From contig JAISDC010000087.1 in the NCBI GenBank assembly GCA_031265105.1, positions 1 through 37,461 on the forward strand: a stretch of 37,461 nt of DNA, in the 5' to 3' direction. The DNA comes from Verrucomicrobiales bacterium. Lineage in GTDB: Bacteria; Verrucomicrobiota; Verrucomicrobiia; Methylacidiphilales; JAAUTS01. The position numbers and the translations under genes were made by a program. Below, one piece after another: positions 10,829 through 28,428 of the stretch. Position 1 is the stretch's first letter. Each line of letters starts with the position of its first letter. Below the pieces are notes generated by a model. That model was not told the origin of the DNA and did not search any database. It saw only the letters and a list, made by a program, of their open reading frames with translations.

Positions 10829-11014
10829 TCAGGGTTGTTCCGGGGCTTCGATGCCTTGGACGAGCAGGGTCAGGGTTTTGCTGGCGGTGCCGATTTCCCG
10901 GCCTTTGTAAACGTACACGGCGTAGTAGTCGTATTGCACGGTGTGCCGCGCGGGGAGCAGGTTGTGCTGGTATTCGGGGTGCGGGGTGTAGCCGAGCAGG
11001 GTGTAGTCGTTTAG
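10829..11014 (-). pseudogene. C-terminal remnant of a hypothetical protein
   Basis: An ORF on the minus strand ends at 10829. After the tandem-repeat part, its last roughly 60 codons look protein-like: NDYTLLGYTPHPEYQHN, then YDYYAVYVYKGREIG, resembling the final strands of a fibronectin type III-like domain (YxYYAVYVYxGxxIG). No credible start exists without reading through the 21-bp array. I interpret it as the 3' end of a broken gene, possibly from the same hypothetical family as 266-376. Both ideas are low-confidence. Confidence 0.35.
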
Positions 11015-11240
11015 GAAAGTTGACTGGGGAGCAAAATAAGGTGACTTTCCGCCGTGGAAAGTGGACTTGGAAGCAAAAAAAGTGGACTTTCTAGCGCGGA
11101 AAGTTGACTTGGAAGCAAAGAAAGTGGACTTTCCGCCGTGGAAAGTTGACTTGGAAGCGTGGAAAGTGGACTTTCTGCCGTGGAAAGTTGACTTGGAAGC
11201 GCGGAAAGTTGAGTTTCCAGCGTGGAAACTTGGCATCCGG
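11010..11240. repeat. 21-bp tandem repeat array, 11 diverged units
   Basis: Eleven consecutive 21-bp units (consensus close to gcgtggaaagttgacttgga) run without spacers from 11010 to 11240. Odd and even units alternate in their ends (ttggaa versus ttccg/ttcta), hinting at a 42-bp higher-order unit. Because 21 is a multiple of three, frames on both strands stay open: one reads KVDLEAK/KVDFLPW heptads, the other KSTFHAS heptads. No start with a ribosome-binding site supports translation of either. Absence of unique spacers excludes CRISPR. Confidence 0.93.
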
Positions 11241-26213: not shown

Positions 26214-26307
26214 TTTAACCACGAATGAACACGAATTTACACGAATAATTTTGATGTCACCATCAGCGGCTTTTATTCGTGTAAATTCGTGTAAATTCGT
26301 GGTTAAA
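26214..26307. repeat. palindrome filling a divergent promoter region
   Basis: TTTAACCACGAATGAACACG and further repeats (26214-26249) are inverted at 26272-26307 as cgtgtaaattcgtggttaaa. The arms consist of 11-nt units (acacgaattt). The loop contains caccatcagcgg, a variant of the dispersed motif. Its last bases are the A of a possible ATG for rarA (26307). Confidence 0.93.
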
Positions 26308-26315
26308 TGCTCCCG

Positions 26316-27665
<1,350 letters not shown>

Positions 27666-27706
27666 GGCGTCTGGTCGCTGCCGGTGGCATGGAAATAATC
27701 CCTAAC

Positions 27707-27746
27707 AAACCGCCGCTGACGATGCGCTCACGGTCAGCGGCGGTTT
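27707..27746. terminator. intrinsic terminator built from an inverted pair of the dispersed motif
   Basis: AAACCGCCGCTGAC (27707-27720) is fully complementary to GTCAGCGGCGGTTT (27733-27746) around a 12-nt loop, followed by more T. Both arms contain GCTGAC/GTCAGC with GATG or CACG at their inner ends, i.e. two facing copies of the motif. It lies between convergent rarA and the methyltransferase and can work in both directions. Confidence 0.93.
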
Positions 27747-28256
27747 TTATGACTTGGCAATTTCGTCGCCTGGCGGCGGTGCCCACGGCGTCAGTCGCGG
27801 CAGCCAGCGCGGGACGTGGCGCCGGTAGCGGGCATAGTCGTCGCCGAAACGCTGGAGCAATTTTTTTTCCTCGACCAGCGGGAAGTAAACGGTGTTCACC
27901 GCCCAGAACACCGCCGCGTACGCTGCCAGTGACCAGGCGTTCAGGAGCAGCGCCTCGGCCAGCGCCATGAGCAGCACGCTGACAATCATCGGGTTGCGGA
28001 CATGCCGGTAGGGACCGCGAATCACCAGTTGGCGCGGCGGTTGCCACGGCGCCGCGGTGCCTTTGCCAACCCGGTCAAACAACCACATCGTCCACGCTGC
28101 CAGTGCCAAGCCTGCCACCAGCAGCGCCCCGCCGACCGCCAGCAACGCCGGATCATTCCGCGTCAATCGCCAGCCCGTCAGCCACAGCACCAAAGCTGGC
28201 AGGGTAATCAACGCGTTGCACGGCAGCAACACCACGGCTTTGCACCAACCGGACAT
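27747..28256 (-). CDS. integral-membrane methyltransferase (isoprenylcysteine/phospholipid-type)
   Basis: From ATG 28256 (MSGWCKAVVL) the product has 169 residues. It has four to five hydrophobic helices and the family motif GPYRHVRNPM, followed by a Glu-containing EEKKLLQRFGDDYARYRRHVPR near the C-terminus. These mark the isoprenylcysteine carboxyl methyltransferase / phospholipid methyltransferase superfamily, where RHVRNP and the C-terminal EE bind SAM. The bacterial substrate is generally unknown and is not indicated here. It is a single gene between rarA and nifJ. Confidence 0.82.
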   Translation of the reverse strand: MSGWCKAVVLLPCNALITLPALVLWLTGWRLTRNDPALLAVGGALLVAGLALAAWTMWLFDRVGKGTAAPWQPPRQLVIRGPYRHVRNPMIVSVLLMALAEALLLNAWSLAAYAAVFWAVNTVYFPLVEEKKLLQRFGDDYARYRRHVPRWLPRLTPWAPPPGDEIAKS

Positions 28257-28428
28257 GACGCGCAATCTAATGCGTTTCACGCGGCAGGGCAACCGTCAAA
28301 TGACGGCTCCTAGTCGCTGACCATGACGTGGCAGCGCATTTTCTTGTTTGACGAAAGCTAATGCCCAAGAGTAGCATTTTAATTTTAAACCCCAATTTCT
28401 GAGACCGATAATAGGTATTTATTTTACT

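Follow-up and report, generated by a model that had tools for sequence, protein, structure and literature searches.

In the literature found, self-recognising DNA uptake words have been described from two proteobacterial families only. Their use, as inverted pairs, for terminating transcription in Neisseria and Haemophilus was pointed to in the initial annotation of the DNA studied here and is documented (PMC1852404, PMC2397512, PMC3630211). About 55% of the strong terminators of Neisseria contain the uptake sequence DUS, and 16-29% of the terminators of Pasteurellaceae use the uptake sequence USS (PMC1852404). A newer method, which reports on these two families only, gave values of up to 37% for Neisseria and 22% for Pasteurellaceae (PMC13020248).

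Here we describe a hairpin of similar design from an uncultured Verrucomicrobiales bacterium. It was found in a contig of 37,461 nucleotides, the whole stretch of DNA that was analysed and which is called the window below. With the DUS hairpins of Neisseria (GCCGTCTGAA...TTCAGACGGC) it shares the facing (+-) arrangement of two copies of a word present more than 1,000 times in the genome, as well as the location after gene ends, convergent gaps included, and the T tail (PMC1852404, PMC3630211). Most DUS in Neisseria are intergenic (PMC2397512), whereas the motif described here is mostly genic (2.1/kb, compared with 0.9/kb in noncoding DNA away from stop codons). Also unlike Neisseria, only about 15 intergenic pairs were found, and an A-rich start that could supply the tail is missing from the motif. 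The USS hairpins of Pasteurellaceae (AAGTGCGGT) show the same co-option, and there too the motif is used by a minority of terminators; their sequence is unrelated, they belong to a different phylum, and their A/T tails lie within the extended USS, while here a T tail is found at paired sites only. A literature search on uptake sequences and Verrucomicrobia turned up an unrelated review and no report of motif-built terminators for this phylum. The terminator mechanism has been documented in two proteobacterial families. According to the literature searched, the word, its pair of dialects and the phylum are new.

The hairpin between rarA and a methyltransferase gene

The hairpin occupies positions 27707-27746 of the window. 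Its placement between two convergent genes, rarA and a methyltransferase gene, was confirmed by protein family matches (MgsA_C, 1e-61, and PEMT, 6.7e-12). The rarA (mgsA) gene, which encodes an AAA+ ATPase, lies on the plus strand at 26316-27665, with an ORF that can start at 26307, and also matches Pfam AAA_assoc_2. The methyltransferase gene, of the PEMT/ICMT family, lies on the minus strand at 27747-28280. These gene borders are the output of an ORF caller written for this analysis. The rarA stop codon is found 41 nt upstream of the stem. The methyltransferase stop codon (27747-27749) adjoins the stem with 0 nt between them and shares bases with the TTTTT tract, so that in this direction the stem begins directly after the TAA.

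The hairpin reads AAACCGCCGCTGAC-GATGCGCTCACG-GTCAGCGGCGGTTT, followed by TTA. Its left arm, AAACCGCCGCTGAC (27707-27720, plus strand), and its right arm, GTCAGCGGCGGTTT (27733-27746, plus strand), form a perfect inverted repeat of 14 nt each, 100% complementary and 12 nt apart. The perfect 14-bp stem first proposed for this site was thus borne out at 14 of 14 positions, and it was also recovered by RNA folding. The plus-strand RNA of 27700-27755 folded at -27.9 kcal/mol, compared with a shuffle mean of -12.8 kcal/mol (z -6.1, with 0 of 200 shuffles as good), and the minus-strand RNA of the hairpin region folded at -29.1 kcal/mol. Flanking runs of A and T had also been described. The T run is present as a TTTTT tract serving rarA (27744-27748, plus strand), the first three T of which lie within the stem, and the tail in the rarA sense reads TTTTTA. 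The A run amounts to just AAA and is part of the stem. In the methyltransferase sense the tail is the weaker TTTGTTAG, with the tract TTTGTTA at 27703-27709 on the minus strand, as read from the sequence and the list of tails. The sequence features of an intrinsic terminator are present: the hairpin is stable and G+C-rich, its stem runs into a U tract, and it lies just downstream of a stop codon. A consensus terminator scan did not list the hairpin because it accepts loops of 3-8 nt only.

The word CCGCTGAC occurs inside the hairpin at 27713-27720 on the plus strand and at 27733-27740 on the minus strand. Two facing copies of a dispersed motif had been claimed, and both are there; their boundaries had been set slightly off, the core being CGCTGACnnTG rather than CCGCTGAC. 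With the core taken from a substitution scan, copy 1 (CGCTGACgaTG) spans 27714-27724 on the plus strand and copy 2 (CGCTGACcgTG) faces it at 27729-27739 on the minus strand. Since the core ends in TG, the motif copies reach into the hairpin loop. There the TG of 27723-27724 pairs with the CA of 27729-27730, above a 2x2 internal mismatch, and closes the loop to 4 nt (CGCT in the RNA fold, 27725-27728, plus strand). The pairing continues for 7 more base pairs past the motif core.

The dispersed motif

The window contains 40 copies of CCGCTGAC, compared with 2.2 expected, and the genome of 2,995,901 bases contains 3,820 (1941 forward and 1879 reverse), while the reversed control word occurs 188 times. 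A chance origin of this abundance is excluded. The single-substitution scan showed that the first C of the word is free and that CGCTGAC is nearly fixed. It is followed by two positions favouring g, c or a, by a nearly fixed TG and by a preferred A, giving the consensus cCGCTGACggTGAc. The core CGCTGACnnTG was found once per 531 bp in the 0.85 Mb scanned. In the same substitution scan, no A/T flank was seen for the solo motif.

Genes held the motif at a density of 2.12/kb, the 90 nt that follow stop codons at 2.37/kb and other noncoding DNA at 0.88/kb, and by these values a concentration between genes like that of Neisseria was ruled out. Neighbouring copies were on the same strand in 959 cases and on opposite strands in 1034, without strand runs, by which a strand-biased signal of the Chi or KOPS type was rejected. 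In the long genes of the window's genome (G000), the coding strand holds the motif more often than the opposite strand (871 vs 686), which resembles a bias in orientation described for uptake sequences (PMC2346458). The uptake sequences of Pasteurellaceae also show an intragenic terminus bias (PMC2346458); a bias of this type was looked for in the distribution of the motif and was not seen.

Facing pairs across the genome

Facing pairs of CCGCTGAC at 2-22 nt numbered 21 genome-wide, compared with about 26 expected from the strand counts, and facing pairs of the full core at 0-12 nt numbered 46, compared with about 39 expected. An overall enrichment of facing pairs was thereby ruled out, and the intergenic subset alone is enriched. 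With 46 pairs seen and about 39 expected, a facing pair as such is unremarkable; the pair in the window stands out because it lies at a gene end, has a longer stem and carries a T tail.

Of the 46 full-core pairs, 45 were read and placed relative to genes. The pairs come from the whole genome, while the motif densities come from 1.06 Mb, with expectations scaled up to the genome. Inside genes, 30 pairs were found where 36 were expected. Enrichment at gene ends had been set beforehand as the test of the terminator claim, and it was found: gaps with a gene end held 15 pairs compared with 2.5 expected, and the pattern recurred in a related genome (see below). Tail-to-head gaps accounted for 12 of these pairs (1.84 expected, P 6e-7) and convergent gaps for 3 (0.65 expected), while none of the 45 lay in a divergent gap. 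In an unbiased subset of 504 kb, where numbers are small, there were 2 intergenic pairs (about 0.3 expected) and 4 in genes (5.3 expected). Moreover, 12 of the 15 intergenic pairs were located within 60 nt downstream of a stop codon.

The intergenic pairs also carry sequence signatures that point to selection for terminator function. Read in the direction of the gene with the adjacent stop codon, the 12 nt past the hairpin contained 5.4 T on average, compared with 2.8 for solo motifs in the same zone (p 5e-5) and 2.95 for background (p 2e-5). These T tails lie outside the motif, given that solo copies have no A/T flank; A/T flanks borne by the motif itself were the confound that Kingsford and colleagues argued around for Neisseria and Haemophilus (PMC1852404). 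The stems extend past the core by 0-7 bp in the intergenic pairs, while 28 of the 30 genic pairs have no extension (p 1e-5). No more than roughly half of the intergenic pairs have a good T tail. A simple caller found T-tailed hairpins after 22 of 762 stop codons; a facing motif pair is found in 7 of the 22, and 9 have one motif copy or more. The sample was enriched for contigs that bear pairs, so the genome-wide share of T-tailed hairpins with the motif may be nearer one in six. One T-tailed hairpin, GGCA[AG]CCGCT[GA]ACCGTGG[CT]TGCC, recurs after stop codons (L084:5860, L111:1031, L111:4367 and L142:376). It has one motif copy at its apex, and two of the four instances carry the A of the dialect described below.

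The cores lie 4 or 5 nt from each other in 10 of the 15 intergenic cases, so that a loop of 4-5 nt is left once TG and CA have paired. Back-to-back pairs with gaps of 0-12 would form equally good stems, but none was found in the noncoding DNA of the same sample. In both G000 and the related genome G001, facing cores are never closer than 4 nt, genes included, although about 11 closer pairs would be expected in the genes of G000. Non-overlapping footprints or the loss of long perfect palindromes might account for the absence of such pairs.

Motif dialects and conservation within the genus

Five genomes of the genus were compared, that of the window (G000) and G001 to G004. The word CCGCTGACnnTG is present in about 1,500-2,550 copies in each of G000, G002, G003 and G004 and in 53 copies in G001, and other genera and families have low background levels. 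Three congeners therefore use the same word as G000. G001 was found to lack CGCTGACnnTG and to have a dispersed word of its own, CGCTAAYgrYGA, in which CGCTAA[CT] (1,027 copies in 600 kb) is followed by a preferred g, r, [C/T], G and A. A weak G stands two bases before it, as in G000. The density of the G001 word is 4.0/kb within 90 nt after stop codons and 1.7/kb in genes. The words CGCTGACggTGA of G000 and CGCTAAYgrYGA of G001 are alike in length, register and flanks, and their differences fall mainly on two positions. Judged by these sequences, the G001 word is probably a dialect of the G000 word. This is similar to Neisseriaceae, where the DUS variants of related species differ at few positions (PMC3630211); unlike the DUS dialects, the two words have no common CTG core, as the G001 dialect has CTA.

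The G001 word also forms facing pairs at gene ends. In 600 kb, 15 intergenic facing pairs lie within 24 nt, 13 of them tail-to-head (1.45 expected), 2 convergent (0.19 expected) and none divergent; 9 further pairs are genic (9.1 expected). They carry T tails (p 0.01). Between the 11-mers, the distance again peaks at 4-5 nt. One of them, ctgcCGCTAACCATGACCTCACGGTTAGCGgcttttttatt, lies between convergent genes. Good T-tailed pairs were also found in G002 (L168) and G004 (L177 and L181).

Conservation of the window hairpin itself could be followed in G002. The ortholog retains the complete stem (28 of 28 bases), whereas changes are seen at 3 of the 12 loop bases and at 5 of the 41 bases upstream. 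CA has been lost from one motif copy, and the inner pairs remain as U-G and G-C. The regions after rarA in G003 and G001 have a different sequence and no such hairpin, so the hairpin is either dispensable or recent.

Termination and alternative explanations

The window hairpin is very probably an intrinsic (Rho-independent) terminator, and probably a bidirectional one, formed by two facing copies of the dispersed motif. The RNA of either strand can fold into the 14-bp stem, with the loop closed to 4 nt by TG/CA; TTTTT follows on the rarA side and the poorer TTTGTT tract on the other. The hairpin would make RNA polymerase pause and release, and mainly rarA transcripts would be ended, opposite ones more weakly. 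In the minus direction, ribosomes that terminate at the methyltransferase stop codon would be right next to the stem and may interfere with the terminator. We suggest that the motif is primarily a recognition word like those of DNA uptake, spread for another reason, and that selection would have retained pairs arising near gene ends and extended them for use as terminators.

Some copies of a motif found every 530 bp will face each other by chance, and a functionless pair could happen to lie between these two genes. The totals of facing pairs near expectation (21 vs about 26; 46 vs about 39) and the chance level of genic pairs would agree with this. It is nonetheless scarcely credible beside 15 intergenic pairs where about 3 were expected, 12 of these 15 no more than 60 nt past a stop codon, with no divergent case, beside the sense-oriented T tails and extended stems of the intergenic pairs (+7 bp in the window), and beside the recurrence of the pattern in G001 with another motif. 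The pairing might instead exist for what the motif itself does in uptake or binding, perhaps as a high-affinity double site, with termination as a by-product. This would fit the fixed orientation and a core spacing that, genes included, peaks at 4-5 nt and is never 0-3 nt. Such a role is very improbable: pairs are not enriched in genes or divergent gaps, the G002 ortholog retains the stem while one motif core is lost, and in Neisseria a paired DUS transforms no differently from a single one (PMC2397512). The hairpin may instead stabilise mRNA 3' ends or act as a processing barrier, for example where a Rho-dependent end is trimmed to the stem. About half of the intergenic pairs have no good U tract and intrinsic-type signals are rare in the genome; with T-tailed hairpins after so few stop codons (22/762), Rho may in fact do most of the terminating. 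The TTTTT at the stem end here and the restriction of T tails to the sense side speak against this role, which we regard as unlikely.

The nature of the motif is a separate question. It has traits of an uptake sequence, with more than 1,000 copies, equal strands and dialects in related species. Among the five genomes of the genus, ComEC was found in 5/5, DprA in 4/5 and PilT over the cut-off in 4/5, which favours uptake without deciding the matter; the best secretin match was GspD-like and gives no such support. ComEA was dropped as support for uptake, since the sole strong HHH_3 match reads like a Tex protein. The initial annotation took the terminator as support for the uptake reading, and this holds weakly: pair-built terminators would be anticipated for an uptake word, but they would also follow from any very frequent word, which supplies inverted pairs open to co-option. 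The motif could accordingly be another genome-wide signal, such as a Chi- or KOPS-like sequence or a methylation site, from which terminators were built, and the failure to identify ComEA would agree with this. We consider it possible but doubtful, as the lack of strand runs (959 same vs 1034 different neighbours) makes Chi or KOPS less likely, the motif is a non-palindromic degenerate 11-mer, its dialect changes inside one genus as in Neisseriaceae, and ComEC, DprA and PilT genes are present. The balance leans towards a verrucomicrobial genus with DNA uptake words and species dialects of its own, independent of those in Neisseriaceae and Pasteurellaceae, each word being separately recruited into terminators of the same geometry. 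If so, this would be a third, unrelated case with dialects, implying that uptake words and their reuse in terminators arise repeatedly and that uptake-word terminators are a convergent outcome of carrying such words. G000 and G001 would then offer a natural comparison of how thousands of sites, together with the terminators, get rewritten.

Other repeats

Other repeats were observed in the same genome. The window contig opens (1-100) with a perfect tandem array of an octamer, ACTCTCGC in 12.5 copies. Perfect octamer arrays of GCGCTCAC are found between genes in many contigs, for example in L081 near 11400, and such arrays probably break the assembly. At 11014-11232 of the window, a 42-bp unit (GGAAAGTTGACTTGGAAGCAAA...) is repeated in tandem in 5.2 copies with 84% matches.
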